The position numbers were made by a program, and so were the translations under genes. From Pyropia yezoensis (taxonomy: Eukaryota > Rhodophyta > Bangiophyceae > Bangiales > Bangiaceae): DNA of 64,000 nucleotides. Position 1 is the stretch's first letter. Each line of letters starts with the position of its first letter. The notes under the pieces are model-generated. The model worked only from the letters and a program-made list of their open reading frames with translations, was not told the DNA's origin and did not search any database. Positions 5,668-32,384 of the stretch are shown one piece after another. The stretch covers positions 30,852,894 through 30,916,893 of the forward strand of contig CM020618.1 in NCBI GenBank assembly GCA_009829735.1, read 5' to 3'.

Positions 5668-5675
5668 AGGCTTGG

Positions 5676-5712: not shown

Positions 5713-5713
<1 letters not shown>

Positions 5714-5884: not shown

Positions 5885-6260
5885 CGAAATGATACTTGGG
5901 GGTTGCACGATCACTGGGCGACACCAGGGGGGGCGTGAAAGGGGGAGGGGGGGGACGATCATTGGACGACACCCGGGGGGGCGTGAGAGGGGGGGGGCAT
6001 TGAAATCCAATCCGATATGTGGGGGTTGCACGATCACTGGACGACACCCGGGGGGCGTGAAAGGGGGGGGGGGCATTGAAGTCCAAATGATATTTGGGGG
6101 TTCCACGATCACTGGACGACACCCGGGCGGGCGTAAGAGGGGGGGGGGCATTGAAATCCAAATGATATTTGGGGGTTGCACGATCACTGGACGACACCAG
6201 GGGGGGAGGGGGGGAGGGGGGAGTGGGGAAGGGGGGGAAGGGGGGGAGGGGGGGGCTTTT
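5885..6260. repeat. satellite array 1, ~75-bp units
   Basis: About five degenerate units, each holding the core CGATCACTGGACGACACC followed by a G-rich run and a segment ending in CCAAATGATATTTGGGGG. Cores begin near 5908, 5945, 6031, 6106 and 6181. The same core is found in the separate array at 9.36-10.05 kb. ORFs across it are repeat artefacts. Confidence 0.85.
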
Positions 6261-6769: not shown

Positions 6770-7975
6770 TGTTCTGCTGACGTGCTTCTAGCCGTCGCGG
6801 GGCCTCCCCCTTTCGCCCCCCCCCCCCTGTTCTGCTGACGTGCTTCAAGCCGTCGCGGGGCCTCCCCCCTTTTTCCGCCTCCCCTGTTCTGCTGACGTGC
6901 TTCAAGCCGTCGCGGGGCCTCCCCCCTTTTTCCCTCTCCCCTGTTTTGCTGACGTGCTTCAAGCCGTCGCGGGGCCTCCCCCTTTTTCCTCCGCCCCCTG
7001 TTCTGCTGACGTGCTTCAAGCCGTCGCGGGGCCTCCCCCTTTTTCCCTCTGCCCCTGTGCTGCTGACGTGCTCCAAGCCGTCGCGGGTCCTCCCCCTTTT
7101 TTCCGCTTCCCCTGTTTTGCTGACGTGCTTCAAGCCGTCGCGGGGCCTCCCCCTTTTTTCCCTCCCCCCTGTTCTGCTGACGGGCTTCAAGCCGTCGCGG
7201 GGCCTCCCCTTTTTTCCCCCTCCAGTGTTCTGCTGACGTGCTTCAAGCCTTCGCGGGGCCTCCCCCTTTTTACCGCCTCCCCTGTTCTGCTGACGTGCTT
7301 CAAGCCGTCGCGGGGCCTCCCCCTTTTTTCCCTCACCCCTGTTCTGCTGATGTGCTTCAAGCCGTCGCGGGGCCTCCCCCTTTTTTCCCCCCCCCCTGTT
7401 CTGCTGACGTTTTTCAAGCCGTCGCGCCGCCTCCCGTTTTTTCCCCCTCCAGTGTTCTGCTGACGTGCTTCAAGCCTTCGCGCGGCCTCCTCCTTTTTTC
7501 CGCCTCCCCTGTTCTCCTGACGTGCTTCAAGCTGTCGCGGGGCCTCCCCCTTTTTTCCCACCCCCCTGTTCTGCTGACGTTCTTCAAGCCGTCGCGCCGC
7601 CTCCCCTTTTTTCCCCCTCCAGTGTTCTGCTGACGAGCTTCAAGCCGTCGCGGGGCCTCCCCCTTTTTTTCTATCTCTCCTGTTCTGCTGACGTGCTTGG
7701 TGCTGTCGCGGGGCCTCCCCCTTTTTTCCCCCCCACCTGTTCTGCTGACGTGCTTCAAGCCGTCGCGGGGCCCCCCCTTTTTTCCCCCGCCCCCTGTTCT
7801 GCTGACGTGCTTCAAGCCGTCGCGGGGCCTCCCCCTTTGTCCACCTCCCCTGTTCTGCTGACGTGCTTCGAACCGAGGCGAGGCCTCCCCCTTTTTTTTT
7901 CCCCCCCCCTGTTCTGCTGACGTGCTTGGTGCCGTCGCGGGGCCTCCCCCTGTCCACCCGCCTTCCCCCTTTACC
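6770..7975. repeat. 57-bp minisatellite, about 21 copies
   Basis: Tandem units of 55-58 bp, each with GTTCTGCTGACGTGCTTCAA, then GCCGTCGCGGGGCCTCC and a variable T/C tract. Because most units are 57 bp (19 codons), long frames are open on both strands. Plus-strand readings repeat LQAVAGPPPFF; minus-strand readings repeat KRGRPRDGLKHVSRTG. One-base changes in T or C tracts shift the frame several times across the array, so no single continuous ORF covers it. I regard it as a satellite, not a gene, but see the finding about the AT-hook-like motif. Confidence 0.9.
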
Positions 7976-8037
7976 CCCCGCCCCGTTATTCGTCTCAACC
8001 GGAACGGCTTCGCTTTCTTCCCTATTTCGTGCCGCTC

Positions 8038-9247
8038 ATGTCCTCGCCGTCGGGCAGCTACTCTCAGCGAGATGAAAACGGGAAGCGTGTCCGTGGACAT
8101 GGGCAGCGGAAACGGACAAAGCGATCATGTACCGCACTCGGACGGGATCCTCCACCGCTTCCCTCTACGGCTACCGGTGCCAATGGCCACGCGCAGCCAG
8201 GCGCCTCTACGCCGCCCAGTACCCTCTCGAGGACAACCGTAGACCAAGTCAACGGTCTGGGTGATGGCGAGCGCGGAGTACTCGGACGAATGGGCGTCAA
8301 TGCCGGTGGAGCGACATGGCGTGACTGGGAACCGTCATCGACATCGTCCCCAGGCCCAAGCCGAGAACCCGTGCGCGGCCTCCTCGTCGCTACCACACTG
8401 AGGACGGACTTCCAGTCGCACCTTGAGACACCCGGCCAAGGGTTTACGATTGTCAAGGCGGCGTGTGACCCGCAAGATGCTGTGGACGCCGCCCGTCTGT
8501 GCGACGACCTGCCGCGGTCCTCGTTCAGAACAATGTTCAACGACATGCTCAAGTCTGAAATGGAATCGGCGTGTATCGTCGTCCCCACGGACCTACTGGG
8601 AACGTGTCAAGGACAACCCCCGCAGTACGCTCGCGCGGACGGCACGGCATCGAGGGGTCGTGTGATGCGCTCATGCGGGCAGACCGTGCCGGCCCCACCC
8701 GAAGAGATCCAGAGCGCCGACTTGAGCACGTGGGTGCGCGTGTGTACGGCGGCCACCATTTTACACGGACAGGCGCAGTTCACATGGGGCAAGCGCTACC
8801 ACACGCTCTACGGGCCGTCACTGCTCCGAAGCTTTGGCGAATGTCCCGCGCAACTGGTTCACACCGACTCGTTCTACCCGGCCAACGTCAAGAGCGCCGG
8901 TCCTGCTCTCTCTTTTCTGCTTGCCCTATCGGAAGGCCCCACGCGGGTGGTCGTCTACCCGTCACTCGCACCGGTGTCTCCCGGCCTCCCCGGGAGGCGC
9001 TATGGCACAGGGGATTGAGCCGGTGGTCGCCGTTCTCCAGTCTGGGGACGTGCTGGTGTGTCGACAGGACCTGGTTCATCATGGTGCGGCTAGCTCGGGG
9101 ACTAACCACCGATTGCAATGGTACGCTGATGCGGGCCGGCCGGTGTTGAAGGAAAACATCTTTCGTGTGTACCTGCCGGGGGAGAGCCCAGAGAGCCGAT
9201 GGCCACAGCCTGGGACGTTTTCCAGGGCCACAAGATCTCGTAAATGA
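8038..9247 (+). pseudogene. 2-oxoglutarate/Fe(II)-oxygenase-like protein with a frameshift
   Basis: The ATG at 8038 opens a frame that ends at 9018, while a second frame (to TGA at 9247) continues the same protein-like sequence from about 8990. Together they give the iron-binding pattern of a double-stranded beta-helix dioxygenase: HTDSFYPANV (His-x-Asp) in frame 1, then strand-like LSFLLALSEG, and GDVLVCRQDLVHHGA (distal His) plus RLQWYADAG in frame 2. The N-terminal ~110 residues are polar and low complexity with a basic KRVRGHGQRKRTKR stretch. Known family chemistry is hydroxylation with 2-oxoglutarate and O2; the substrate cannot be guessed. The break lies near 8985-9015 and is too small for an ordinary intron, so either one base was gained or lost in the genome or the sequence has an error. 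The gene sits between two satellite arrays. Confidence 0.55.
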
Positions 9248-9354
9248 CTAATATGCTGTGACCAACGAGGCACGATCGGGTTGGTATAACCAAGCAAGTT
9301 TCGAGTATCTTCGCCACCGGACTGCACGTTGGTGTACAATCTCTGAAGGACTTG

Positions 9355-10048
9355 GCTGGACGACACCAGGGACGGTCTCAGACGGGGCGACCAGTGAAAT
9401 GCGTCCCAAAATTTAGGCGTCCACGATCACTGGACGACACCAGGGACGGTCTCAGAGGGGGGGCCAAGTAAAATGTGTCCCGAAACTTAGGCGTCCACGA
9501 TCACTGGACGACACCAGGGACGGCTTGGAGAGGGGGGGCACCAGCGACGGTCTCAGAGGGGGGGCCAGGTGAAATGCGTCCCGAAATTTAGGCGTCCTTG
9601 ATCACTGGACGACACCAGGGACGGCTTGGAGAGGGGGGGCACCAGGGACGGTCTCAGAGCGGGTGCCAGGTGAAATGCGTCCCGAAATTTAGGCGTCCAC
9701 GATCACTGGACGACACCAGGGACGGTCTCAGAGGGGGGGCCGAGTGAAATGCGTCCCGAAGTTTAGGCGTCCACAATCACTGGACGACACCAGGGACGGC
9801 TTGGAGAGGGGGGGCACCAGCGACGGTCTCAGGGGGGGGGCCAGGTGAAATGCGTCCCGAAATCTGGGCGTCCACGATCACTGGACGACACCAGGGACGG
9901 CTTGGAGAGGGGGGGCACCAGGGACGGTCTCAGGGCGGAGGCCAGGTGAAATGCGTCCCGAAATTTAGGCGTCAACGATCACTGGACGACACCAGGGACG
10001 GCTTGGAGAGGGGGGGCCAGGTGAAATGCGCCCCGAAATTTAGGCGTC
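9355..10048. repeat. satellite array 2, ~72-105-bp units
   Basis: About seven units built from CGATCACTGGACGACACC, AGGGACGGTCTCAGAG or AGGGACGGCTTGGAGAG, a G run, and GTGAAATGCGTCCCGAAATT with TTAGGCGTCC. Units alternate between a short form and a longer form carrying a duplicated ACCAG(G/C)GACGG segment. It shares the core with array 1 at 5.9 kb. Confidence 0.88.
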
Positions 10049-10376
10049 TTCCCATGTGCATTCTTTATGTACTGTACTCTACGTACGCGCGCGCGTGCTC
10101 TTCTGCTGAGCCTGCTTTCGATGCTTGCCGCGCTCCCTCATCGGATGCTCACCCCTCCTCTCATAGTGCGCGCGCTAGCCCGCTCTGCCCCCTCCGCTCC
10201 CCCCGCCCCCCCCCCCGCCTCTCTTCTCCCAGTGCGCGCGCTCGTCTGCATTCCCCCCACGCCCCGCCACCCCCCACCCCCCGCTCTTGCACACTTCCCC
10301 CCCCGCCCCCCGCTCTTGCACACTTCCCGCTCCCCCGCTCTCCCCCCCCCCCCCCCCTCCCCCTCTTCCATCCTGG
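10049..10376. other. C-rich spacer
   Basis: No gene seen. C-run-rich plus strand with repeated short motifs such as CTCTTGCACACTTCCC. It leads into the first R-block copy. Confidence 0.5.
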
Positions 10377-10540
10377 CCAAGACAAGGGAAGAGACAGGCT
10401 AGAGGTGGCCTTCAACCGGTGACGCCCTGTGCGTAGCCCGGTTGCCCCTCGCCTGCCTCTTCCCGCCCGCCCACCGCTCTTTCCCACTCCTTCCCCCCAT
10501 CTCCCACCCGGCTCCTCCGTCTTTCCTCCATCCACGCCGT
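10377..10540 (+). repeat. R-block dispersed repeat, copy 1
   Basis: Contains CAGGCTAGAGGTGGCC, GGTGACGCCCTGTGCG, CGGTTGCCCCTCG and CGCCCGCCCACCGCTCTT in fixed order, followed by a C/T-rich tail. The same string of motifs recurs at 13980, 18335, 18680, 32385 and (shorter) 35755, always on the plus strand. Here the next ATG, at 10620, opens an ORF. It could be a shared 5' flank/promoter, a SINE-like element or a duplicated intron edge; I cannot tell which. Confidence 0.8.
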
Positions 10541-10619
10541 CCCCCCCCCCCCTCCCCCCCCCCAATCCCGGCCAAGTCGCACGGCGCCTGCTGTTCTCTC
10601 CTACCGCAGGCGTCTCACC

Positions 10620-10976
10620 ATGGCCGATGCTGGGTATGATGGGCAGCGCGGTGGTGGCGGGGATACGGGTGAGGGTGCGAACCCTCCTGCCTGTCTTTTT
10701 CTGGCGGAGCGCCGACGACGCGCGCGTCGTAGCGCCGCTGCGGTCAGCTTGGCCGCACCTACTGTCGCCGACCAAACGCGCATGGGGGCTGGTACATCAT
10801 CCACCCGCTCTCCCGTAGAGGATGGCATCGGTGGTGGTGGTGGTGTCGGTGGATCATGTTCATCGGCGTCGTCAACGCCTCACACCCCCGACCGTCAGGT
10901 GTTCTCTGCTGGGGAAAGCGCCGCCGATGGTGGGGCGGATACGCCTGGCGTTGGCGAAGGCGACGATGTAGAGTGA
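10620..10976 (+). CDS. unrecognised 118-aa Gly/Ser-rich ORF
   Basis: ATG at 10620 in a good context (CACCATGG). It encodes a basic Arg cluster (AERRRRARRSAAA) followed by a Gly/Ser/Thr-rich acidic tail, ending in a TGA. It overlaps the next ORF (ATG 10856) in another frame. Either the two are one gene needing a frame change or splice, or one is spurious. No known domain. Confidence 0.3.
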   Translation: MADAGYDGQRGGGGDTGEGANPPACLFLAERRRRARRSAAAVSLAAPTVADQTRMGAGTSSTRSPVEDGIGGGGGVGGSCSSASSTPHTPDRQVFSAGESAADGGADTPGVGEGDDVE

Positions 10977-12382
10977 AGCGGGAGGACGTCCTGGCGGCTC
11001 AAGTGCGCGGCATCGACGGCCTCACAGCCGGGATTGGTGAGGCTGCGGTCGGGACCAGCATGTTGTCCTCGGGGTATCGCCAAGAGGACGTGGAAGCGCG
11101 CTCGCCTCCGCCGCCACCGCAACGCGCGCTGGCGGACATCATAGCTGCCGGGACGGATATCCTGGCGTCGGGGACTCGCCTAGATGGAGCAGGACAGGGC
11201 ATGCCGCCGACGCCACCTCCGCAACAGGTGCCGCCGCGGGTGCCACTTCCCCCGCTGGCGTCGTTTGGCATGGCGTCAAGGCCAGCAGTGCCGTCTCGTG
11301 GTGGGTCGGACGAACAGCACCGCCAAGAGGATGGGAGTGCGCGTGGACAGGAGCCTCCTGTGCCCCGCCCGACCCCTACAACGGTGAAAGTAGGCGGCGT
11401 GCCTGCTCCTGGTGGCCCGCCATCCACGGCGTGTGCGCGGTGTCTCGAGACCCCCAGTTGGGTGGGAAGCCCCCCACCATATGAGTACAAGAAGGGGCAG
11501 ACAGCTGACTCAAGCCTCAATAAGACCCTCGCGAAAAGGGTCGATTCGTGGAAGCGCGGACACCCCCCGGTCAAGAGCGCGTGTGGCTGTTGTGGCATGC
11601 GGTTTTGGAAGCGCCTGGACTGCGTGTTGCACGAGGTCGCGTGCAGGGAGTTTAAGGAGTCGTCTGTGTTGTCAATACCGGGCAGGCTGCTTTCGCGGGA
11701 CAGGGTGTCGGGTGTTGGGCATATGGCTGGCCCATCGGAGGGACGTATGGTCCGCCCAGCTCACCGTCGGGTGAGCGCTGTGCGCGGCAATGCTCCCCGC
11801 CACGGCCACGGCGATTCTCCTCAGCCACGACGACGGCACTTCTCCCCACCACGACGACGGCGCCGGCCCCCGCCACGACGACGGCACTTCTCCTCGCCAC
11901 TTCGACGGCACTTCTCCCCGCCACGGCCACGGCGCGGCTCTCCGCTACGACGACGGTGGTGCTCCCCGCCACGGCTACGGCGCCGATCCCCGCCACGGCA
12001 ACGGCGATTCTCCGCGCTACTTCCACGGCGCCGGTCCCCGCCACGGCCACGGCGCGGCTCCCCGGTACGACGATGGTGGTGCTCCCCGCCACGGCTACGG
12101 CGCCTATCCCCGCCACGGCAACGGCGATTCTCCGCGCTACTTCCACGGCGCCGGTCCCCGCCACGGCAACGGCGATTCTCCGCGCTACTTCCACGGCGAT
12201 GCTCCCCACTACGACGACGGTGGTGCTCCCCGCCACGGCAACGGCGATTCTCCCCACTACTCTCACGGCGATGCTCCCCGCCACGGCTACGGTGGTGCTC
12301 CCCGCCACCGCAACGGCGATTCTCCCCGCTACGGCAACGGCGATTCTCCCCGCTACGGCAACGACCACGGGCCTGTGCGTGA
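10856..12382 (+). CDS. 508-aa protein with Cys/His cluster and long RS-like repeat tail
   Basis: I do not recognise the protein as a whole. From the ATG at 10856, residues ~1-40 are Arg/Trp-rich, ~75-200 are Pro/Gln/Ala-rich, and ~195-265 hold a compact Cys/His region: ACARCLETPSW, then CGCCGMRFWKRLDCVLHEVAC, giving Cys-x2-Cys, Cys, His-x3-Cys spacing like a small zinc-binding module. The last ~190 residues repeat SPPRxRRxSPP and related units, resembling Arg/Ser-rich splicing-factor tails. At the DNA level this tail is a minisatellite of CCACGGCNACGGCG-type units (11,800-12,370), open in several frames, so the RS character could be a by-product. An R-block lies ~320 bp upstream. A nuclear nucleic-acid-associated role is inference only. 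Confidence 0.4.
   Translation: MFIGVVNASHPRPSGVLCWGKRRRWWGGYAWRWRRRRCRVKREDVLAAQVRGIDGLTAGIGEAAVGTSMLSSGYRQEDVEARSPPPPPQRALADIIAAGTDILASGTRLDGAGQGMPPTPPPQQVPPRVPLPPLASFGMASRPAVPSRGGSDEQHRQEDGSARGQEPPVPRPTPTTVKVGGVPAPGGPPSTACARCLETPSWVGSPPPYEYKKGQTADSSLNKTLAKRVDSWKRGHPPVKSACGCCGMRFWKRLDCVLHEVACREFKESSVLSIPGRLLSRDRVSGVGHMAGPSEGRMVRPAHRRVSAVRGNAPRHGHGDSPQPRRRHFSPPRRRRRPPPRRRHFSSPLRRHFSPPRPRRGSPLRRRWCSPPRLRRRSPPRQRRFSALLPRRRSPPRPRRGSPVRRWWCSPPRLRRLSPPRQRRFSALLPRRRSPPRQRRFSALLPRRCSPLRRRWCSPPRQRRFSPLLSRRCSPPRLRWCSPPPQRRFSPLRQRRFSPLRQRPRACA
11800..12370. repeat. Arg/Ser-encoding minisatellite
   Basis: Units of roughly 30-39 bp built from CTCCCCGCCACGGC, AACGGCGATTCTCC and TACGACGACGGTGGTG. Larger ~110-bp super-units repeat near 11940, 12060 and 12120. 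It lies inside the ORF at 10856-12382. Confidence 0.8.
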
Positions 12383-13979
12383 ACCATCTAGTCCGGGGAG
12401 TCCTTCGGGGTCGCGTAGCTGGGGGGCCGGGGGTCGGGGTATTTGAGTGACGTTGCAGTCTTTTTCCATTCCTATCACATCCACTCTTGGCCACGGGGTC
12501 TTGGCCACGGGGTCTAAGAATGATGGTAGGACGGCTTCTCGGAAAAGGTAACAGTGCTTGCTATCGTCCTCATCAGGGGAAGTTTTGGCGCCGCGGTCAC
12601 CTCCACCGCAACCGCTACGGCCACCGCCGCGGCCACCGCCGTCGGAGGAGCCGTCGGTCGAGCCGCAGCGGCCACGGCCAGCCGGTCGCGCTGCGCCGGC
12701 GGGGACGCGCTGACCGGGGACGCGCGGACCAGACCCAGGAAGTCTGCATTGGCCAGTGGCAGCGATGCCGCCGTCCCCGCGCACGTCACGTCACGTCAGT
12801 ATGGGGAACGCACACGGTACCCCACCTCCCTCCTTGTCCCCACCCCCGGCGGCCCCTCTCCGGCCGCCGCTGCATTTCGCCACGGCGACCGCCACTACGG
12901 CGACAGAAAAGGGGGGCTCCATGTACATGGCCTCGATGTGGGTGGCCACGTGTGCTCGGCCGCTGCATCAAACAGTGGTCCCACCTCCCTCCTTGTCCCC
13001 ACCCACGTCGTTGTCTCTGCCTCCCTCACCGGCCCCACCTTCCTTGCCGTCCGCATCCCCACGCGCCCCCCTCCAACCGACGAGCCATGAGCCCCTCGGC
13101 CAAGTCAGAGTGCTTGGGGACAGCTGGCGACTGCTGCCCCCGCACAGGTGACGGTCCCCTCTTTGGCGTGCCGTTGTCAGCAAACACGCTTGTTGTGGCG
13201 CTGCGGGACGCTGCCTCGACCACGGAGTGGGCCTTTTTCTCCCAGCACACGGTCGCACTGCCCCCCCACACCCTCCTGCCGCCAAAGGACTTGCACTCAC
13301 TGCCCCTCTAACAGCCCACAGGACGCACATCACCAGGGCCGTGGCGCGCCACAGCTCAGCAGGTGGTGGCTTGGTCTCCGATGAAAGCTATTTGGGGAGG
13401 GCGTGTCGCTCTCGGAGCTCTCTGGCAGGCTCCCTCTCAGACTAATCATTCAGGCCACCCCTGTGAAAGGTCATTAACCCCGCCTCTCAATGACACCAAA
13501 ATGACTCGGTTACAGGACCCTGCATTTGCTCATTGGAAGCTAATAGGTCATTTGACATCTAATCGTCCCCTCAATGGGCGCGCACATCTTTGGTGATGAT
13601 GCCAGCACACCCAGGCAAGAGCGGACTCCTGGGTGAAAATGCACACATCTCATTGGTGTAGAACCCACGCCCTCCCCCCCGTGCGCATGTGCGTGGCCCG
13701 CAAGGAACGCTCGCACACGAGCGGGCGCGCGCGCGCGCTCGTCTACGCTTCCCCGCCCCCCGCCCCCACCCCAACCCCCCTTGCCCACTGGTCTTGCACA
13801 CTTCCCCCCCTCCTCTCCCCCTCTCCCCCCCCCCCCCCCCCTCCCCCTCTTCCATCCGTCTCCTCCGCCTCTCCTTTGCATGCCCTCCCCCCCGTGCGCG
13901 TGTACGTGGCCCGCAAGGATCGCTCGCCTACGTTTCCCCGCCCCCCGCCCACACCCTCCCCCCCCCCCCCCTCCGATCT
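12383..13979. other. low-complexity region, one weak ORF
   Basis: No gene I can defend. A short frame from the ATG at 13087 to 13311 encodes a protein-like C-terminus (GVPLSANTLVVALRDAAST) but lacks a recognisable family. A 26-bp direct repeat (CCCACCTCCCTCCTTGTCCCC) occurs at about 12821 and 12980. Two copies of a ~75-bp segment with CCCCGTGCGC, GTGGCCCGCAAGGA and CGCTTCCCCGCCCCCCGCCC lie at about 13,672 and 13,886. C runs dominate 13,740-13,980. Confidence 0.45.
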
Positions 13980-15545: not shown

Positions 15546-15739
15546 AACGAGCCCCCGCTTTCGGAGGGCACGTCGGCGCCGGAAGAAGCGGATGCTGACG
15601 CGGACGCCCCGCCCCCTGTCCCGCCTCCGGCCGACACTCGGGAAGAAGCGAATACAGACTCGGACGCCGAGTGGGTGCGGCGGACGGACGCCGGGGACTC
15701 TTCCAGCCATGAGTGAGGTATCATTTTGGGCGGGCGCAT

Positions 15740-16360
15740 CGTGCCGCGGACGCCAATCTTGTCGTCCTTTGGGGGCTACGCGGCCCCACCCGCGCATGAC
15801 GAGGGTGGGGTGCATTCTTGTTTTTTTTTGGTCTGTTTGTCTTTACCCCCGCGGACGCCAATCTTGTCCTTTGGGGGCTACGCGGCCCCACCCGCGCATG
15901 ACGAGGGTGGGGTGCATTCTTGTTTTTTTTTGTCTGTTTTTCTTTACCCCCGCGGACGCCAATCTTGTCCTTTGGGGGCTACGCAGCCCCACCCGCGATT
16001 GACGAGGGTGGGTTGCATTCTTGTCTTTTTTTGTCTGTTTGTCTTTACCCCCGCGGACACCAATCTTGTCCTTCGGGGGCTACGCGGCCCCACCCGCGCA
16101 TGACGAGGGTGGGGTGCATTCTTGTTTTTTTTTGTCTGTTTGTCTTTACCCCCGTGGACGCCAATCTTGACCTTTGGGGGCTACGCGGCCCCACCCGCGC
16201 ATGACGAGGGTGGGGTGCATTCTTGTTTTTTTTTGGTCTGTTTGTCTTTACCCCCGCGGACGCCAATCTTGTCCTTTGGGGGCTACGCGGCCCCACCCGC
16301 GCATGACGAGGGTGGGGTGCATTCTTGTTTTTTTTTGTCTGTTTGTCTTTACCGCATCCC
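15740..16360. repeat. ~102-bp tandem repeat, six copies
   Basis: Each unit carries CGCGGACGCCAATCTTGTCC, TTTGGGGGCTACGCGGCCCC, ACCCGCGCATGACGAGGGTG and a T-run with TCTGTTTGTCTTTACCCC. Units differ by only a few bases. Peptides read from it are repeat artefacts. Confidence 0.92.
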
Positions 16361-16609
16361 AGACGAATAGAGACACTGTCAATGGTTTCATGTGGCGTCG
16401 CGCTCGTCTCTGGTATTTCTTGTGCCGTCTACAGGGCTGACGGGACACTACCGCCACAGCCACCCCGCTCATCCACAGCAGCCACCACCGCCAAGGTACA
16501 ACAAACCGCGTCCCGGGTGGGCTCCCACGCGGGTGAGCTCCCGAAAAGTTTGCGCGTGCCTTTTTCATATCTATCGCTTGTGACGTGCTCAGAATGACAG
16601 TCGCCTATG

Positions 16610-19423: not shown

Positions 19424-22194
<2,771 letters not shown>

Positions 22195-22199
22195 GGCAG
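22195..22199. repeat. target-site duplication GGCAG (left)
   Basis: GGCAG directly precedes the LTR here and directly follows the other LTR at 31578-31582. A 5-bp duplication is normal for Ty3/gypsy integration. Confidence 0.85.
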
Positions 22200-22669
22200 T
22201 GTGGCAAAAACCACAAGCACACACGGCACCCAAGTTGGGGCGGTGTGCAAGGGCTGCCTCCCGTGTCGGGGGAACCGGAAGAAGTGCAAGTCGCACACAC
22301 TCTGTCCCTGTTGTGGGGCAAACCCCCCACGGACAAACAAGAGGATGGTGTGTGGTCCAACAGTTTTCTTGGTCGGGACGGGGACGCAGGGCCAAGCCCC
22401 GCTGTCCCTCCCCTTATCCCCCCAGGGTCCACTCAGAATCTCGCCACTCAGAATCTCCCACCCCAGCACCTGCCCACCGGGCCACACAAAAATTCGAGAC
22501 GATAAATGCAGAAAACCCTCAAATCCAAGTTGGATTTACTACTAAGCTAACTATCCCAAACTTAGGGAATATGGACCCAAATGCAGGGGGAGGAACGGAT
22601 CAGGCCAGTGGCCTGCCGCCCCTTGCATGGCACGTGTTGCCCCCCTACCTGGGGGTCAATACTGCCACA
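22200..22669 (-). repeat. 3' LTR (470 bp)
   Basis: Bounded by the perfect short inverted repeat TGTGGCA...TGCCACA. It is the same length as the right LTR, with four substitutions between the two. Confidence 0.95.
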
Positions 22670-22682
22670 CTCCCCTCGTCTC
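22670..22682 (-). other. polypurine tract
   Basis: On the minus strand GAGACGAGGGGAG directly abuts the 3' LTR, the place where plus-strand DNA priming occurs in LTR elements. Confidence 0.6.
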
Positions 22683-23007
22683 AGTTCCGACCGACCCGGT
22701 CGGCCCTGTGAGGGGGTGCGTAAACGCACGTCTCGGCGTTGGGGGCGCGACTTGCTGTCCCCCATCGAGTACGTAACGCGGATGTGGAGGCGGTCACGTT
22801 GACCGCCCCTCTCCTCAAACTTGCCCACTCGGCAGCTTGCTCTTCTCAGTTCACACTTCACCATCACCACCACCTCCCCTTCACCTTCCACTGGGCCGCC
22901 CCACGCTGGGGAGGCCACCCGTATACCCACGATCCGAGTCCCCCTCAACTCGAGGCGGGTCTCGTGCCGCGATAGCCAGAGCGTCTCTCCCCAACTTGGG
23001 GAGAGCC

Positions 23008-24951
23008 ATGGCGACCCCGGGAGTGGAGACGGACTCTCCAGATGAGCGTATGGAGGACCCCACCTACGGTGAAGCACCCGCCGGGACTTCCGGCGGGGGC
23101 TCCGCTATCGCTCCGGGGGATGGGACTCCCGCGTCGCCCGGCTTTGGGTTGACGGCGGGGTCTCCCCCGGAAGCGGGACAATTTGTCCCGCGTGAGGCCT
23201 AGGGGCGGTGGTTTTACCCCGCTTGGCCTCTCTATGAGGAGGAGTTGACTGTTCTTCGCTGTGGCCGACTTGGCGCAGCGATGGGTCGGGCATGGGACCG
23301 CTTACGGGAGAAGTATCCCCGTAGGGTCGGGTTCCCTGCCGGCTTCAGGACGGACCAGTTTGCCTTCCTGGACGATGAGGAGGTTGAGGACGTTCAGCGT
23401 GCCAAGGCCATGGTGGACCGCGGGGGAACTATCCCGGGTCCCGGCGACTTGCCGACCTTTACTTGGGACGCGGTGGCAACTCGCCCCCCGTACCTTCACG
23501 AGGCCGATCCGCACACTCATCACTTTGATGTGCGGATGGAGAAAGACTTCCGGCGAGGTCCCTACTTGGTGACCTCGGCTCAACTTGAGTTCCCTCAACA
23601 GTCTGCTGCCAGGAAGGCGCAGTACTATCCGAAGAAGCCCGAGTGGTGGCCTCAAGTTGAGGTCCCCTACGGGTTCCCGGCGTTGCTGCCACGGTCGCTT
23701 GACCACTTCGGCTCCGTCATGTTGACGGCCGGCCCTGATCACCTGGTGTGGGCCATGTTGGCCACCCAGTGGCTCCTCGAGGTCATGTCGACCTGGGTGT
23801 CCTGTGTTCAGCGGCGGGGGATGCTCTGGCATCTCCCCCTCCGGCTCATCCAAGGTTTGGAACAGCTCACCCCTCAGCTAGTTGCTGAGGGGTGCTCATC
23901 AGGACAACTCACTCTACTTGAGGAGATGCTCCGCCTCCACAAGTTTATCGAGTGGGAGAGCATTGAGCACAAGTTGCGCCGCCCCACTCGTGGGCCCAAG
24001 GACGATGGCGCACTTCGCCAGTTCGTGTGGGTCGCTCGTGGACTTCACGACGGCCGTGTGCTCCTACGAGAGGGGTTGGGCATCGGGGACTACCCGTATG
24101 CCCCGGGGGTGGATCGCCACACTGCGCCACCCCCGGACAAGCCCATAGTTATGGCTGTGCCCTCATATGATGACCATATGACTCAACCTACTGCGGGGGC
24201 CCCAAGTCGGGGTCGCAGTTACACCCGGGTACCGCCACCTCGGCGTGCCCCTCCGCTTCCTCCTGTTCCTTTCCAGCCTCACGGGAACATCCCGATCAGC
24301 GTGGCCGTGGAGTCATCCACCCCGGTGTCCCCCCACTTGGGGGCCACCCTCCTGACGGTATACCCCAAGTTCGTGTTACAGCCCACGCCACTAACCTCAG
24401 AGATGATGATCACCACGTTGGTGCGCACCATTTTCTGGTTAGCCGCGTCGACCGCAACCCTCCAATGGTCCGAGACTCCGCAACTTGAGGAGCGCGTTCG
24501 TACTGCAGTGGCGACCGCGAGTTGCGAGTCGGTGGCGGAGTTCATGACAGCCGAGTTGGCTCGCATTGGGGCTATTATGCCCCAGCCAGCCCCACTTGGG
24601 CGTGGCAAACGTCGGGCGAGCCGGGCATACTCGCCTCCTCGCCGTCGTCGCCGACACTCGCGGCGCTCTCCCTCCGTGTCGGAAGACGAGTTGTCTTACT
24701 CCGTCTCGGAGTCCTCTACCCCGTCGGAGACGGAGTCCGTCCAGCGTCTGCGTCGCAAACTTGCGCGCAAGACCAGGCAGAAGAGTAGCCACGGTCGGCG
24801 CCACTTGCGCGACCGTGAAGGGCGCGACGGTTCCGACTTGGAGCCGCCGCCCCTTCCAACGAGTGGAGACCGTTATCGGCGTGGGTCTCGCCGCTCGCCT
24901 CCACGTGAGGGCGAGGGCCGTGGAGTGGGAGAGTCTAGCATGCGTGCCTAG
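23008..24951 (+). CDS. extra ORF antisense to the retrotransposon, RS-like basic tail, one in-frame TAG
   Basis: The ATG at 23008 (GAGAGCCATGG) opens a plus-strand frame of 648 codons, interrupted only by a TAG at 23200-23202 (codon 65) and ending with TAG at 24949. It sits tail-to-tail with pol (stop at 25063) inside the retrotransposon. Residues ~1-64 are acidic and Gly/Pro-rich. After the TAG a globular region begins (WFYPAWPLYEEEL, then FAFLDDEEVEDVQRAK, YYPKKPEWWPQVEVPYGFPA, LEEMLRLHKFIEWESIEHKL). A Pro-rich linker follows, and the last ~120 residues are Arg/Ser-rich (YSPPRRRRRHSRRSPS, RRGSRRSPPREGEGRG), a nuclear or RNA-binding type tail. I recognise no family. The antisense strand has no comparable frame here, so this is the coding strand. 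It may be transcribed from antisense activity of the neighbouring LTR. The TAG may be a lesion or a readthrough site. Confidence 0.7.
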
Positions 24952-25062
24952 TTGGCAGCTGCCTTTGTTGTGAGAGTGTGAGGGTTAGGGCTGAAGTTAA
25001 AAGCCACTCTGCGTACCACTTCGACTTGAAGCACTCTCTTGGCACTGTTGCTCGGCCTTCCC

Positions 25063-28000
25063 TCACGTTGAGGGAGGGCTGTTAGGGTCTATCTCATTCC
25101 GGGCACAGTACGCCCGGACCTTCTCAGCGGGAAGATCCTCCACATACTCCCACGTATCATCCTTGGCTTTGTAGCAAAACCAACGCACCCTCAACATGAG
25201 GCGGTTAGTGTCCTCATCCCATCCGTGGTCGATGAACTTATCGAACACGTACTCCTGCGGGCCCTTTTTGGCCGCAGGCAGGGAGGGGAGGCGCCACGCT
25301 TCCGAAGCACGCGCCCAAGCTGGGTCGCCTGCAGGCGGAGGTGCAACTTTGACCACGTCCTGTCCGTTCACTGTGCGGACCCCATCGTCACTTTCGATGG
25401 TGAAGCGCCGCCCATCAGTACGAAGGGCCTGGTACGGCCCCTTCGTCTGGAATACCAACTTACCCCCAGTTGGGGTGTGTGAGTGAACCAACACCCAGTC
25501 ACCCTGCTCGGGGACATGCTTAGCATTGCGCACCTTTTTGTCAAAAGTACGCTTGTAGCGCTTCTGTGCTTTATCCATCTCAGCCCTGACTTTAGGGAAG
25601 AGGTTTTCGAGCCTAGCAGCGAACTCCGCCTTACTCTCAGTAGGAGTAGGCGTACTGCCACCACCCTCCATAGTTGGGAGCGACCGCCGCACGGCAATAG
25701 ACCGCACGCGACGGGGGGTCACAAAAGCGAAGGGTACTTCCCCGGTAGATGAGTGAACCTGCGAATTGTAGGCAGTAGTAAGGATAGAAATGTATTGGTC
25801 CCACGTCTTCACGTGCTCACTCACATAGTGGCGCAGCTGCCTAACAATAGTTTTGTTGAAGCGCTCCACCTGCCCATTAGTTTGTGGGTGGTAGGGGGTG
25901 GCATAGTTTGCCTTAACCCTCAACATATCCAGCACTCCCTGAAACAGTACAGACGCAAATTGCGGTCCATTGTCCGATAGTGTACTATCCGGAATGCCAT
26001 ACGCGGCAACCCAGTGATCTAGGGAGGCTGACACGACCGACATGGCCGTGATCTCTGCCAGTGGGATCGCTCGCGTAAGTTTCGTGAAGCGGTCACAGAT
26101 GACCAGGAGGTACTGGTTGCCCTCCTCGGTCACTGGCAGTGGCTCAAGGATGTCGATCGCCAACGCGGCGAAGGGCTCCTTGGCCGGGAACAATAGCATA
26201 GCCGTACTAGGCCGCCGTTCCATCAGACGGTTCTGTGCACAACTTGTGCAGGCAGCCACCCAACTATAGATGTCCTCCACCATGGACGGCCAGTAGTACC
26301 TGGTCCCCAGGGTCTGGTACAGTTTACTAGACCCCAGGTGTCCACCCGGGGGAGCGTTGTGCTCCCTCTCAAGGATACTGTCCTTGAGGGATGCGGGGAC
26401 GACAAGTTGTTCGGTCCACTGGAATACCCCCCTCCTCATGAGGAGGCCATCGTCTCCCAGAAAGAAACGCGTCTCCACCACTGTATCCAGTGTATCCCTC
26501 TGCGACTTGCAGAAGGGATCCTCGGCCTGGGCCTTCACCACCTCGTCCAGGGACAGGGGCAAGTACTTCTTGTTCCCTGGCGCCTCGGGGTTCAACGCCT
26601 GACCCGAGCGCGTGACTACCTCCACGATGGGGATGTCCTCATCGACTGGGTAAGTGTCCAGCCCCTCGGTAGGTACCCGAGAAAGGCCGTCGGCAAGGGC
26701 ATGTTGCCTGCCAGGTCGGTACTCAATGTCAAAGTTGAAGGGTGCCAGTCGCACCCTCCACCGATTGAGACGAGTGTTCGTACAGTCCGTCTCAAAGATG
26801 AACTGCAACGCGCGGTGGTCACAGCGGATGAGGAACTTCTCACCCTCTAGGTAGTGACGAAGTGACGTCACCGCCCACACCACTGCGAGTCCTTCCAACT
26901 CGGTGACTCCGTAGTTCTTCTCGGCCGAGTTCAGCCCCTTACTGAAGTATCCCACCGGCAAGTACTCCTTGTCCGGCTGCTGCTGAAGCAACACACAACC
27001 AATTTGGTCGTAGCTAGCGTCCACATCCAGGATGTAGTGGCCTCCCAACCGGGGAATAACCAAGATGGGGGGCTTCAGCAGAAGGTCCCGAAGAGCCTCA
27101 AAGGATTCCTGCTCCACCCGACTTGGGGGCGGCAGGTTCTTCGGTAGCGTTGAGCTCACTAGCTCATTCAACGGCTTCGCCACCTTGGCGAAGCCCTGGG
27201 TGAAACGTCGGTACACGTTACACATCCCGAGGAAGCTCCTCATCTGGGTCTGGGTCCGGGGGTACTGAGCCTTACGAATGGCCCTCAAGTTCTTCTCGTT
27301 AACACTGAGACGCCCCGGACGGACAACATGTCCCAAGTACTCCACCTCTTGAGTGAAGAGGTGGCACTTACTCGCCTTCAGTGACACACCGGCGTCAGCA
27401 AGTAGCTTGAACACCTGGCCAAGATGGCCAATGTGTTCCTCCGGACTTCGGGAGAACACAATGATATCGTCTAGGTACACAAGACAGATCTGCCACCGTA
27501 CTCCGGCCAGAATCATGTCCATAACAAGCTGGAAAGTTGCCAGCGCGTTACACAGACCAAACAGTAGGCGCTTGCACTGGTAGGTACCACAGTGACAGGT
27601 AAAGGTAGTTTTATGCCTGTCCTCCGGGGCAATGGGAATTTGCCAGTACCCCGCGTTACAGTCCAGGGTAGAGAACACGTTTGCCTCCCCCAGAGAGTCC
27701 AGACAGTCGTCCATCCTAGATAGGGGATAACTGTCCTTCACCGTGCTCTCGTTGAGCTTACGGTAGTCGATACAGAACAGGGGGGTCCCATCAACTTTGG
27801 GGACGATAACCACCGGACTCGCCCACTCGGCGTTGCTGGCCTCGATCACATCGAGGGCCTCCATGCAAGCAACTTGCTCCTTAACGAGGGCCCTTGAACG
27901 AGGTCCTCCCCTATACGGTTGTTGGCGTATAGGGGGTGCACCGGGCTTCAACTCGATCCGGTGTTGGGTGGCTCTCATGAGTCCCAATTGACCATCCCAC

Positions 28001-29223
28001 AACTTGTGATATTGGTCCAAGAGGCGTTCAACTTGAACCCTCAACCTGGGGGGGACACCCTCCATGTTCACATGGGGCCGAGGAGAGGCGGCCGACTTGG
28101 CTTGATGCTTCTCCTTTCCGGACTTCTGGTCGCTACTTGCGCCCGCGTTGAGGGTGACCGCTACTACCGGTCCCTCGTGTTGGTCGATATAGCCGAACTT
28201 GGCTCCCGAATTGAAGTACTTGGGCGACGAGCTCAGGTTCATCACCTGTATCCTCCACGGGACTCCGGCTTTGGAGTCCATCGTGCCAAGGGCAACATGC
28301 ACTTGGTGCTTGCGAGCAAGACGGGGGTGAGGGTGCACCAACCCGTTCCCCGTATAATCAGTTACAACATCAACGTGCGCCACCGAGTTGGGGGGCAACG
28401 TGACTTTACGGGCTAGACGCAGGGTAGCAGTAAACCCTTCCCTCACAGAGCAAACAGGCCTCGACTGTGAGACTGTCACAGGAGCCACAGACTTTCCCTT
28501 ACCAAGGATGGGGATAGTCTCCCCATTCATCAACTTGACCCGGTACTCAGGGCCACAAAACAATGGCACTTGTGTAACAACATAAGGGGTACCCAGAAGC
28601 AGGGGTACCGATATATTCTCAACTACACCATAGGTCACGTCGACCTCATGGGTCCCCAACCTAGTTGGTAGGGTCACGGCACCAACGATGGGAAGTACCC
28701 CACCATTGATGTCAATCATATGGTCAGCTTTGGACCTACAGCGTTGGAGCTTCACCTCCTTAGGTAATAGCGACTTGCGTATCAAGGAGGCTCCTGACCC
28801 GGTATCAAGTACGATACGGGCACAACAGGCGCGGCCGGGGGCAAGTTGCACCCGTCCAGCCACCTGGAAGCTCTCACCCGTCAGCACCGCGATGACCCGA
28901 CGTGGGTTTACGTTCTTGGGGAGTCCTACCCGAGGTGGGCGGACTCCCTTAAGTCGCCGCAGTATCCGGCACGGTTGGTTCGTCCTCCTGGCCCACTTGG
29001 CCGAGGCTGCCGTTGTGAGCTTCGGACGACCAGCCCCAACGGTCATTCGCTTCCCGCCGACTTGGCGTCCGAATCTGAGGGCGGGAGGAAGACGACGAGT
29101 CCGAGGACGACGTGTCCGCCTCCTCCGCCGAGGGTGTGGCGACCGCGACGACCGTTCCAGACCCACCCTCGCGGCGTGAACGTACTTCGTTCGTAGCCGA
29201 CTTCTTACTTGCATTCCTAACAA
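25063..29223 (-). CDS. pol: retrotransposon Pol polyprotein: protease, RT, RNase H, integrase, chromodomain
   Basis: An uninterrupted 1,386-codon frame. Domains in order: basic leader; aspartic protease with LDTGSGASLI (residues 139-148); reverse transcriptase with the catalytic box LVYLDDIIVFS (about residue 580); RNase H beginning near VDASYDQIGCVLLQQQ (about 735) with CDHRALQFIFE; integrase with a His-His-Cys-Cys zinc finger (REHNAPPGGH to CTSC, about 960-1000), catalytic residues in LAIDILEPL, LSDNGPQF and NGQVERFNK, and a GPY-type motif (TKGPYQALRTDGRRF). The C-terminal chromodomain-like segment (EYVFDKFIDH, LMLRVRWFCYKAKDDTWEY) marks a chromovirus and may steer integration to particular chromatin. 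Translation presumably follows a +1 shift from gag in the 275-nt overlap; the true N-terminus lies in that overlap. No stop or frameshift, so it looks competent. Confidence 0.95.
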   Translation of the reverse strand: MLGMQVRSRLRTKYVHAARVGLERSSRSPHPRRRRRTRRPRTRRLPPALRFGRQVGGKRMTVGAGRPKLTTAASAKWARRTNQPCRILRRLKGVRPPRVGLPKNVNPRRVIAVLTGESFQVAGRVQLAPGRACCARIVLDTGSGASLIRKSLLPKEVKLQRCRSKADHMIDINGGVLPIVGAVTLPTRLGTHEVDVTYGVVENISVPLLLGTPYVVTQVPLFCGPEYRVKLMNGETIPILGKGKSVAPVTVSQSRPVCSVREGFTATLRLARKVTLPPNSVAHVDVVTDYTGNGLVHPHPRLARKHQVHVALGTMDSKAGVPWRIQVMNLSSSPKYFNSGAKFGYIDQHEGPVVAVTLNAGASSDQKSGKEKHQAKSAASPRPHVNMEGVPPRLRVQVERLLDQYHKLWDGQLGLMRATQHRIELKPGAPPIRQQPYRGGPRSRALVKEQVACMEALDVIEASNAEWASPVVIVPKVDGTPLFCIDYRKLNESTVKDSYPLSRMDDCLDSLGEANVFSTLDCNAGYWQIPIAPEDRHKTTFTCHCGTYQCKRLLFGLCNALATFQLVMDMILAGVRWQICLVYLDDIIVFSRSPEEHIGHLGQVFKLLADAGVSLKASKCHLFTQEVEYLGHVVRPGRLSVNEKNLRAIRKAQYPRTQTQMRSFLGMCNVYRRFTQGFAKVAKPLNELVSSTLPKNLPPPSRVEQESFEALRDLLLKPPILVIPRLGGHYILDVDASYDQIGCVLLQQQPDKEYLPVGYFSKGLNSAEKNYGVTELEGLAVVWAVTSLRHYLEGEKFLIRCDHRALQFIFETDCTNTRLNRWRVRLAPFNFDIEYRPGRQHALADGLSRVPTEGLDTYPVDEDIPIVEVVTRSGQALNPEAPGNKKYLPLSLDEVVKAQAEDPFCKSQRDTLDTVVETRFFLGDDGLLMRRGVFQWTEQLVVPASLKDSILEREHNAPPGGHLGSSKLYQTLGTRYYWPSMVEDIYSWVAACTSCAQNRLMERRPSTAMLLFPAKEPFAALAIDILEPLPVTEEGNQYLLVICDRFTKLTRAIPLAEITAMSVVSASLDHWVAAYGIPDSTLSDNGPQFASVLFQGVLDMLRVKANYATPYHPQTNGQVERFNKTIVRQLRHYVSEHVKTWDQYISILTTAYNSQVHSSTGEVPFAFVTPRRVRSIAVRRSLPTMEGGGSTPTPTESKAEFAARLENLFPKVRAEMDKAQKRYKRTFDKKVRNAKHVPEQGDWVLVHSHTPTGGKLVFQTKGPYQALRTDGRRFTIESDDGVRTVNGQDVVKVAPPPAGDPAWARASEAWRLPSLPAAKKGPQEYVFDKFIDHGWDEDTNRLMLRVRWFCYKAKDDTWEYVEDLPAEKVRAYCARNEIDPNSPPST

Positions 29224-30988
29224 GATGTTGGATTCGTTTACTCAACTTGGGGCAATCATATGCCCAGTGTCCATCGGAGTTGCAGTTCCAACACCGATGG
29301 TCTGTTCCGGGAGGGGTCCTCCCAACTGGGGAAGACGAAGGGATACCCTGGGAAGTTCCCACGGCAGCTACCACCCTCTCCTTGCGGATTCGGCGTGCCT
29401 CTCTCAACTCTCTGGCCTGGCGCGCCTCCTCCCGTTCCTTGGCCAACTCGGCCTGACGCTCCTGGCGTTGTTCCTCCCGCGACTTGCGGTAGGTCTCGCC
29501 TCTGCGATAGGCGAACCTGGCCAACTCGGCCAGGGTCGCCCGGGCAGTGTTATGCTCCCGGGTCTCCATCCGGACTGACCAATGGAGTCCCTCCACAAAC
29601 CGACTCTTCACCACAGCTTGTGGATGAAGAAACCCACAAAGATTGTTGAGCTTACGGACTCGCTCCGCAAAGGACAACTCGTCCTCCGCCTCTTCCTGAT
29701 GGGCTTGCGTAAACTCCTCGACTTGAGAAGCCAACGCTGCCTCATCAACCATGGCTCTCAACAACCAGTTGACGAGCTCCAAATAGGACGTCACCTCCCC
29801 AGCGCCTCCACTTGGGGAGCTGGGCATGACGGACATGAGTTTTGTCCGCATGTCACCCTTCGTAAACTCCTGTAGCATGTAAAAAGCCATGCCTTCACTT
29901 ATGGCATTGTCGTCACAGGCTTTTGTGAAACGACGTAGGAACTCAAAGACACGGAGGGGGGGAGTTCCATCCCACTCCGCTTTGTGCCCAAAAGAACGAA
30001 GAGCATTCTTCTTGGCACGGCCCATGGCTCGGGCCTGGTCAGGACCATACGCCACCGACTTGTTGTGGAGGGCGTAGGTCTCACAGTCAAAGATCCGCTG
30101 GTAGACCGGGTTGGCTACCTGGATCTTGGGCGGCACCTCACGTTGAGGGAACAGCCGCTGTGGCACTGGGGTAAGTTGACCCTCAGCGCCTGTAGTCTGG
30201 TACGGCGAGCTTGGTGTAGCCGCCGGCGTTTCCGGGGGGAACTCCCCCATGAAGGGCGTACGCCCCACCGAGTATGGTGTGGCTCCCTCGTTGGGAGTCA
30301 CAGGTGTCGCCCCCAGTTCGGGGCGACCCGAGATAGGCGTGAGGAGAGATTCCCCCTGTGCCTGCGGGCTCGAGAGCCCCAATCCGGTCTGGACATTAAG
30401 GCCATCTGGCAAACTCGCCACAATCTGATTCAGAATAGTATTCGTCATCGTAACCACCAGGTCCGGCAAAGTCTGCCGCAACACATTGGTCGCCTCCCGA
30501 CGGACAGTTTCCGCGAGGAGTGGATTGACGACTCCAGTTGAGTCTCGGTCCGCCTCCGGGAGTCCACCTGAGGGGTAACCACGTTCCTCAGTGGTCTCAA
30601 CCGGGGGCATGGGCGCGAGCCCATCGCCGACCAACGGAGGTCCGCCGTCCTCCAAAAGCCTAGTTGGCGACGGCTCCAAGCCAAAGTTGGCTCCAACCCG
30701 AGTGGAACCCGCGGGGACAGTCCTCACCCCTTGGGACGTTCCCGTTGAGTATACCACACGGTGGCCAGACTTCGGCCCACCCACATCAGAAGTGTCACCC
30801 GAGTGAACTCCCGACTGAGTCGGGGTGGCCTGTTGCCCGCCCGCACTTCCAGTCCTGCTGGCTTGAGGGACCTCTAGTCCCTCTGCGACCCCAGGTAACC
30901 CCACCTGTGTCTCACCAGTATTCAAAGGCACTGAAGTACGTGCGTCACCCGTGTACTCACCAGACGACGGGGGGTCCGATCCATCTAT
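28949..30988 (-). CDS. gag: retrotransposon Gag with CCHC zinc knuckle; normal ATG replaced by ATA
   Basis: Gag forms the particle and packages RNA. An N-terminal Ser/Pro/Gly-rich region is followed by a capsid-like helical segment (VFEFLRRFTKACDDNA, LELVNWLLRAMVDEAAL, AERVRKLNNLCGF), a long Arg/Glu coiled region, and a nucleocapsid CCHC knuckle, CWNCNSDGHWAYDC, about 110 residues before the C-terminus. The stop is TAA at 28949. No in-frame ATG exists near the N-terminus. At 30986-30988 the codon is ATA where the related copy at 61.05 kb has ATG in the matching position (SLANM versus SANI). I take that as the original start, making this copy's initiation codon mutated. The frame is open upstream to about 31080 without any ATG. 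Confidence 0.88.
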   Translation of the reverse strand: MDGSDPPSSGEYTGDARTSVPLNTGETQVGLPGVAEGLEVPQASRTGSAGGQQATPTQSGVHSGDTSDVGGPKSGHRVVYSTGTSQGVRTVPAGSTRVGANFGLEPSPTRLLEDGGPPLVGDGLAPMPPVETTEERGYPSGGLPEADRDSTGVVNPLLAETVRREATNVLRQTLPDLVVTMTNTILNQIVASLPDGLNVQTGLGLSSPQAQGESLLTPISGRPELGATPVTPNEGATPYSVGRTPFMGEFPPETPAATPSSPYQTTGAEGQLTPVPQRLFPQREVPPKIQVANPVYQRIFDCETYALHNKSVAYGPDQARAMGRAKKNALRSFGHKAEWDGTPPLRVFEFLRRFTKACDDNAISEGMAFYMLQEFTKGDMRTKLMSVMPSSPSGGAGEVTSYLELVNWLLRAMVDEAALASQVEEFTQAHQEEAEDELSFAERVRKLNNLCGFLHPQAVVKSRFVEGLHWSVRMETREHNTARATLAELARFAYRRGETYRKSREEQRQERQAELAKEREEARQARELREARRIRKERVVAAVGTSQGIPSSSPVGRTPPGTDHRCWNCNSDGHWAYDCPKLSKRIQHLVRNASKKSATNEVRSRREGGSGTVVAVATPSAEEADTSSSDSSSSSRPQIRTPSRREANDRWGWSSEAHNGSLGQVGQEDEPTVPDTAAT

Positions 30989-31088
30989 GTTGGCTGACGA
31001 TCCGTATGACACGGTCCAAGTCCACCGTTCCTTTGAGACAGAGGGCCCCCTACACCCGGGTGCACCCGGAGGTAAAGTTTACCTCTAT

Positions 31089-31105
31089 CCCCTGCTGCTC
31101 CACCA
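31089..31105 (-). other. primer-binding site
   Basis: Two bases inside the 5' LTR the minus strand reads TGGTGGAGCAGCAGGGG, beginning with TGG as expected for the complement of a tRNA CCA end. The first 14 bases are identical in the second family member at 60931. It implies a tRNA whose acceptor stem begins GGAGCAG; which tRNA cannot be told from this window. Confidence 0.65.
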
Positions 31106-31107
31106 GA

Positions 31108-31577
31108 TGTGGCAAAAACCACATGCACACACGGCACCCAAGTTGGGGCGGTGTGCAAGGGCTGCCTCCCGTGTCGGGGGAACCGGAAGAAGTGCAAGTC
31201 GCACACACTCTGTCCCTGTTGTGGGGCAAACCCCCCACGGACAAACAAGAGGATGGTGTGTGGTCCAACAGTTTTCTTGGTCGGGACGGGGACGCAGGGC
31301 CAAGCCCCGCTGTCCCTCCCCTTATCCCCCAAGGGTCCACTCAGAATCTCGCCACTCAGAATCTCCCACCCCAGCACCTGCCCACCGGGCCACACAAAAA
31401 TTCGAGACGATAAATGCAGAAAACCCTCAAATCCAAGTTGGATTTACTACTAAGCTAACTATCCCAAACTTAGGGAATATGGACCCAAATGCAGGGGGAG
31501 GAACGGATCAGGCTAATGGCCTGCCGCCCCTTGCATGGCACGTGTTGCCCCCCTACCTGGGGGTCAATACTGCCACA
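31108..31577 (-). repeat. 5' LTR (470 bp)
   Basis: TGTGGCA...TGCCACA ends, the same length as the left LTR. It differs from it at four places, two of them neighbouring transitions (GGCTAATGG here, GGCCAGTGG there). Confidence 0.95.
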
Positions 31578-31582
31578 GGCAG
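31578..31582. repeat. target-site duplication GGCAG (right)
   Basis: Matches 22195-22199. Confidence 0.85.
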
Positions 31583-32384
31583 GCGGGTGGGAGCGCTGTG
31601 GCGTCGGGCGCGCCGGTGCCCCGCTCCCCCTGACAGCCGGTGCCCGGGCGGGAGAGGACAGCCTCGCGCGGCGCACCCGCCGCGTCGGTGACGGGGAGCG
31701 GGGTGGCGAGAGGGGGGGGGGAAGGTTTGGGTGGGGGGAAGGTTTGGGGGGGGGGGGCGCCCGCGGGAGCCCCGACCGCAGCGTTGCCGTGGCCCGCGAG
31801 CCAGCGTGGGGTGGCGACTGTGGCGGCGACGGCGGCATGTGAAAGAGGGGGGTGCGGGGGGGAGCCCTGTGGGAGCCCTGCGGGAGCCCGCCGGCGGGTG
31901 GCGGCCCTGGCGCGGCGTCCCGGGAAATATCGACTAAACACTATGTACTCCATATTCTGCTGTGACGGTATGTACGACCGAGCTTTTTTGTGGGTGCCGT
32001 CGGGACATGTTAAACGGGCCGTCATCACATGTGAAGGTGTGGGACCTGTGAAAGGGCCTCGCACGGGCACCCTCGCCGCCGCCGCCGCCATGGCGCCAAC
32101 GCGGCCACCGCCGCCGCCTCCGCACTGTTCACCGCTGCCTCCGCACTGTTCACCGCCGGCGCTCGTGGAAGCGCACCCCCTTTGCCACAATGAAGAGTGC
32201 CCGCCCCGTCGCCGTGCACGCGCCCGCCCTTCTCGCCACGTCCCGGCCAAGGTAGGAAGAGGGGGGGGGGGGGGGGGGGGGGTGTTGAGGAGGTGGTGGG
32301 GTAGAGGAGGTGGTGGGGATGAGGAGGTGGTGGGGTTGAGGAAGTGGTGGGGGAAGGTGGGACGGCGGGTTTGGGGCGGTGCGT
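31583..32384. other. intergenic; diverged tandem-unit relative
   Basis: No supported gene. 31,690-31,770 repeats GGGGAAGGTTTGGG. 32,160-32,384 is a diverged unit of the 18.2-kb tandem repeat: GTGCACGCGCCCGCCC, CGTCCCGGCCAAGGTAGGAAGAG, a G run, GGCGGTGCGTGCGTGGGGAGAG. Confidence 0.5.

Follow-up and report, generated by a model that had tools for sequence, protein, structure and literature searches.

Within a 64,000-nucleotide stretch of the genome of the red alga Pyropia yezoensis (hereafter the window), a long plus-strand frame lies inside a Ty3/gypsy element whose own genes occupy the minus strand, and the question it raises is whether this frame is fortuitous or a gene, and if a gene, what its product might be. 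The genome containing the window comprises 107.5 Mb in 11 contigs, and the published description of the P. yezoensis assembly gives a repeat content of 48%, with LTR elements predominating (PMC7423979). The element, which belongs to what we call family 1, spans 22200-31577 and is flanked on both sides by an identical 5 bp, its target duplication (Table 1). Its two LTRs have TG...CA ends and differ at 4 of 470 positions (99.15% alike), in agreement with the ~99.1% identity reported in the first-pass annotation, and the family 1 copies are young, with LTRs 98.5-99.8% alike. The order of RT, RNase H and integrase in pol, the presence of gag, the LTR ends and the target duplication are those of a Ty3/gypsy element; a chromodomain (PF00385) is matched at pol residues 1334-1378 below the cut-off (E 0.013, 15.9 bits, cut-off 25.1). 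Rfam gives no match at its gathering thresholds across 22000-31800.

Table 1. Positions of the family 1 element and the family 3 remnant within the window
Feature	Position	Strand	Remarks
Target site duplication, left copy	22195-22199
3' LTR	22200-22669	-	470 bp
aORF, family 1 antisense accessory frame (putative)	23008-24951	+	stop at 23200-23202 in window copy
Gap between convergent genes	24952-25062		111 bp, aORF stop to pol stop
pol	25063-29241	-	RT, RNase H, H2C2, integrase core; weak sub-cut-off protease and chromodomain matches
gag	28949-31078	-	CCHC zinc knuckle
5' LTR	31108-31577	-	470 bp
Target site duplication, right copy	31578-31582
Broken antisense frames of family 3 remnant	55814-57165	+	55814-56593 and 56563-57165; homologous to aORF
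pol remnant, family 3	57478-59636	-	37-40% identical to family 1 pol

The antisense frame (aORF) begins with an ATG at 23008 and lies between the LTRs, tail-to-tail with pol (aORF end 24951, pol end 25063), as the first-pass annotation described. The same annotation gave it 648 codons, and while a long frame of that extent is present, it is not open throughout: codon 65 (23200-23202) is TAG, which divides the window copy into runs of 141 and 582 codons, stop to stop, leaving 582 open codons. A sense codon occupies this place in 20 of the 20 other copies read. Absence of the frame from other copies had been named beforehand as an observation that would speak against an accessory gene; all 20 full copies fetched carry it, these having been found by searching with the aORF itself, and it is open throughout in 12 and interrupted by an early stop or a frameshift in the other 8. 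Independent support comes from exact 26-mers of the aORF and of the pol integrase, which occur 895 and 882 times respectively, so that aORF and pol are present in similar numbers. In a protein search all of the best 75 of 3603 candidates are stop-free over 582 residues, with one identical score shared by 45 of the 75, although such genome searches score the best candidates only and open-frame counts are thus biased upwards.

The simplest explanation of such a frame would be a chance absence of stops in G+C-rich DNA, passively carried along by a young amplified family, and both the G+C-rich genome and the close similarity of family 1 LTRs are in keeping with this. However, when 22670-25062 was simulated 1000 times with an order-2 Markov model, the longest run without a stop, whatever the frame, averaged 220 codons and was at most 485, and none of the 1000 simulations reaches 582 codons; the homologous frames in two other families and the selection seen in families 3 and 1, both described below, likewise speak against chance, which we regard as a very remote explanation. 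No minus-strand frame lying wholly within 23008-24951 exceeds 191 codons, and the aORF is therefore not the shadow of a sense gene.

Two more Ty3/gypsy families in this genome, with pol ~65% and ~40% identical, have homologous antisense frames in the same place, and in all three families these frames are about 620-705 codons long, opposite to gag-pol and convergent with pol. At a family 2 locus (L029, pol 65% identical) the tail-to-tail antisense frame has a deletion; in other family 2 copies it is about 605-650 codons long, and 64 of 75 matches are stop-free over a 595-residue query. Family 3 is represented in the window by a remnant with broken antisense frames (Table 1), for which LTRs were sought as direct repeats of at least 40 bases in 52500-62500 and none were found. 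Besides the window's own there are at least 146 family 3 relatives at 58-75% identity, with frames of up to 846 codons; of the 63 full-length matches to one open relative, 57 lack stops, and at L044, a locus with an open frame, the C-terminus of pol lies convergent behind the aORF.

The aORF proteins of families 1 and 2 align at 34% over 290 residues (E 1e-39, hhalign probability 99.7) and those of families 1 and 3 at 23% over 166 residues (E 2e-7, 7-sequence set), and in each of five aORF protein comparisons the real score is reached by 0 of 1000 local shuffles. Profile-profile alignment by hhalign gives probabilities of 18% for families 1 and 3 and 23% for families 2 and 3 (E about 1e-3), and because these are low the family 3 link rests on the pairwise scores, the shuffles and the equal position. 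Judged by these comparisons the aORF proteins of the three families are homologous, and they have diverged faster than pol. The opposite strand and the lack of gag or pol similarity would also fit an outside origin, in which an ancient insertion brought in a gene of the host or of a different element that has since become part of this one, but given the shared convergent position such a capture would predate the split of the three families, and no relative is found in Pfam, in PDB-profile searches or among viral contigs. We think this origin improbable; it bears on where the gene came from and is compatible with an accessory role, which it does not exclude.

Direct measurements in families 3 and 1 show purifying selection on the protein encoded by the aORF. 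For three family 3 pairs (L043-L045) the dN/dS ratio is 0.315-0.326 in the aORF frame and exceeds 1 in four of the five other frames, the exception being the complementary frame, which shares its third positions with the aORF and contains 15-23 stop codons; a pair including the window fragment gives 0.39. The ratio is 0.79 for a family 2 pair, on 31 differences in a pair that is too young, and 0.55 between families 1 and 2, where dS is 1.5 and near saturation. Among family 1 copies, aORF variants shared by at least two copies fall 7/3/22 on codon positions 1/2/3 as against 58/55/77 for singletons (p 0.0037), third positions holding 22 of the 32 shared polymorphisms. For pol the corresponding numbers are 18/10/44 and 83/103/159, with the codon-position order re-registered by hand and no p value attached, and the gag control (shared 14/15/19, singletons 23/38/49) has no third-position excess, showing that this polymorphism test is not uniformly powerful. 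These counts use 20 aORF sequences (window included), 17 of pol and 14 of gag, chosen by coverage, with one frameshifted copy (L023) excluded from the codon-position count; variants private to the window copy were tallied separately (6/10/14). In an earlier count of 18 copies plus the window, excluding two copies with a common 2-base deletion (L015 and L023), the shared variants comprised 20 synonymous changes, 9 non-synonymous changes and 1 stop; for singletons the corresponding numbers were 71, 134 and 5.

The ratio near 1 with frequent stops that had been named in advance as the contrary outcome is thus not what is found, and from these comparisons we consider it nearly certain that the aORF is protein-coding and selected. 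This weighs on a further explanation, in which it is the antisense transcript that functions, by forming double-stranded RNA or interfering with gag-pol, while the open frame has no significance of its own. The convergent layout with its 111-bp gap would suit such a role, and PMC7264820 considers functions other than protein coding for the antisense ORFs of plants; nonetheless it is the amino acids that are selected, as shown by the dN/dS of about 0.32 in family 3 and by the excess of shared third-position variants in family 1, making this a doubtful account of the frame, while an RNA role alongside the protein is possible in addition.

Because an opposite-strand frame is present in three families, its proteins are homologous and it is under purifying selection, we favor as the likely overall explanation that it is an antisense accessory gene of a red-algal Ty3/gypsy group. 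The first-pass annotation's proposal of an antisense-encoded accessory protein is thereby well supported, the frame being open in many copies with homologues in two further families. The gene is convergent with pol and kept for its protein, which is probably real and would help or control the element, and its promoter is inferred to lie within the 3' LTR (22200-22669) or in 22670-23007.

The nature of the protein was approached through database searches and its own composition. Pfam, including PF04195 (TRP28), gives no match for the window frame (E up to 1) or for three proteins of families 2 and 3 (E up to 10), and no aORF relative was found in NCBIfam, in a profile-versus-PDB search or among viral contigs; solved structures searched with the aORF profile also gave no match. 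A viral relative was considered, and 0 of 62 viral-contig stretches fitting a pattern were confirmed. Among solved structures the window protein has one weak match, to Fc receptor-like A (E 0.0043); it covers a proline-rich stretch and we do not trust it. A copy of gag or pol was rejected, as similarity to either is no better than chance (gag best E 0.72).

The first-pass annotation also credited the protein with an ordered middle, an RS-like basic tail and a possible RNA-binding function. The middle is the part common to the aORF proteins of all three families, and the sole structure model (414 residues, 3 sequences) is of low confidence, with a mean pLDDT of 39, and mainly helical, which does not bear out the suggested order. 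A basic serine-containing tail is indeed present in family 1, where R+K make up 26% of the final 130 residues, but it is confined to that family, the same region of the examined family 2 and 3 proteins having 8-11% R+K. Since this RS-like tail is particular to one family and the libraries searched name no domain, RNA binding is unsupported. A third structural (Gag-like) or envelope-like protein is another candidate, as the interval between pol and the 3' LTR is the usual place of env and the tentative model is mainly helical. Against this the frame is antisense rather than sense, the highest 19-residue hydropathy of the aORF proteins is 1.2-1.9 with no clear membrane span, and similarity to gag does not exceed chance; an Env-like product was accordingly rejected, and we hold a structural or envelope role in general to be unlikely. 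The accessory protein may instead act in trans, as a regulator or as a targeting factor for the element.

The frame is also retained in a shortened form of the element. Two 5.0-kb non-autonomous elements (L025, 192-5210; L023, 194-5208) lack RT, RNase H, the integrase core and most of gag and retain LTRs, a full-length aORF and the C-terminus of pol; the aORF is open in L025, which is flanked by its own 5-bp duplication, and frameshifted in L023. When the stretch distinctive of this derivative was searched for, all of the best 40 of 3895 candidates scored were full length, giving at least 40 copies, and an exact 26-mer spanning one derivative junction occurs 22 times. Among the 74 best-scoring open aORFs, with the window's own set aside, 7 lie inside 5-kb derivatives, so that at least 7 derivatives have an open frame. 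The aORF therefore persists where the enzymes of the element do not, although passive carriage in a recent burst could give the same pattern. At one locus (C1:9719033-9737600) a full-length element (L015) and the 5-kb element L023 stand in tandem with one LTR apparently common to both; the two have the same aORF frameshift, and their outermost flanks resemble one target duplication.

Antisense ORFs between pol and the 3' LTR (aORF-3R) are described in PMC7264820 for plant LTR elements, including gene23 of maize Grande, rice RIRE2, Silene Retand and PvRetro13. The red-algal frame has the characters of this class, being a long antisense frame between pol and the 3' LTR that is present in most copies of its family, rather than a one-off transduction, and conserved as a protein. 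Grande gene23 is described as having its own promoter and a product reported to be nuclear (PMC7264820), and a regulatory or targeting role like that proposed for gene23 is a tentative suggestion for the aORF product, made by analogy. In Retand such ORFs are presented as a lineage feature and non-autonomous members exist (PMC11963269), much as the red-algal aORF lies antisense between pol and the 3' LTR and has a non-autonomous derivative. The hosts differ, however, and so do the proteins: TRP28 is given as encoded by 97% of Retand clusters and reported in flowering plants only (PMC11963269), and no match to it occurs in the red-algal proteins scanned. Retand is moreover described as a non-chromovirus lineage (PMC7264820), whereas the red-algal pol has a weak chromodomain match.

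Outside plants, the Boty element of Botrytis cinerea, likened here by its description in PMC7264820, likewise has an antisense frame between pol and the 3' LTR, and HTLV-type antisense genes such as HBZ are also near the 3' LTR, which is an analogy only (PMC7264820, PMC11963269). In the account of PMC7264820, antisense genes of LTR retrotransposons come from flowering plants and a fungal element, and their function is unknown. The present case extends a kind of antisense gene known from plants and fungi to a red alga, with a protein that is unrelated. Among the papers listed by literature searches none reports such a red-algal gene, although subscription papers and supplements lay outside these searches and absence is unproven. 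A selected protein, unrelated to any in Pfam, in three red-algal families suggests that antisense genes arose more than once and benefit the element, and with near-identical copies numbering in the hundreds in a genome of 108 Mb, tests of expression and localisation are practicable.

A second feature of these elements, noted post hoc during a motif search, is an excess of small hairpins, and it is a more surprising observation than the antisense gene. Perfect stems of at least 5 bp around a 5-base loop number 47 in 22200-31107 as against 11.0 expected, and those of at least 7 bp number 13 as against 0.8, either count being reached in 0 of 100 simulations. The recurrent pentaloop is N-A-[C/G]-T-N with variable stems in families 1 and 2. 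Among 318 such pentamers in family 1, 75 have at least 3 closing pairs (5.6 expected) and 50 have at least 4 (1.6 expected), and in family 2 (L029 1-4700) the numbers are 29 (3.0 expected) and 18 (0.9 expected). Three family 3 stretches contain 0-1 pentaloop hairpins with 1.1-1.6 expected, and a control stretch of the window (3500-12500) has 3 with 2.9 expected; family 3 thus has the aORF without the hairpins, and the two are not obligatorily linked. The 6-mer AACTTG, which is part of the hairpin pattern, occurs 11 times in 22200-24951 (2.0 expected) and is not enriched in the family 2 and 3 stretches tested.

In families 1 and 2, 120-base windows of either strand fold with lower energies than their dinucleotide shuffles (mean z -0.7 to -2.3), which is not seen in family 3 (mean z -0.4 to 0.0); unrelated window sequence gives -1.0, and this energy test alone is therefore not specific. 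The hairpins of families 1 and 2 do not occupy conserved positions (0-2 common centres per comparison, 0.16-0.47 expected), and double changes in stems are not clearly compensated. G-T versus A-C mismatches favor no consistent strand. A mutational origin was rejected, as 718 family 1 singletons (L023 excluded) create 29 pentaloop hairpins versus 31.3 under random placement, with losses of 83 versus 92.5. The hairpins of families 1 and 2 might be dispersed recognition sites for an element protein, either Gag or the antisense product, or a shield that stops the convergent sense and antisense RNAs from annealing and thereby feeding RNA silencing, a speculative reading to which we give little weight. 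If it is true, packaging-like dispersed signals would coexist with an antisense gene in one LTR element, a combination that to our knowledge is new for LTR retrotransposons.

Elsewhere in the window, a plus-strand fragment at 60958-61326 matches residues 1-123 of family 1 gag at 71% identity and probably derives from an older subfamily. Tandem repeats occupy 15723-16430 and 11752-12423, with spacings of about 101 bp and 24 bp respectively, and the G+C content of 42000-47000 is 81-85%. Two consecutive long plus-strand frames of 573 and 284 codons lie at 50267-52843, the first of which has a weak, sub-cut-off match to DUF1280 (E 0.00054) and is perhaps part of a DNA transposon.
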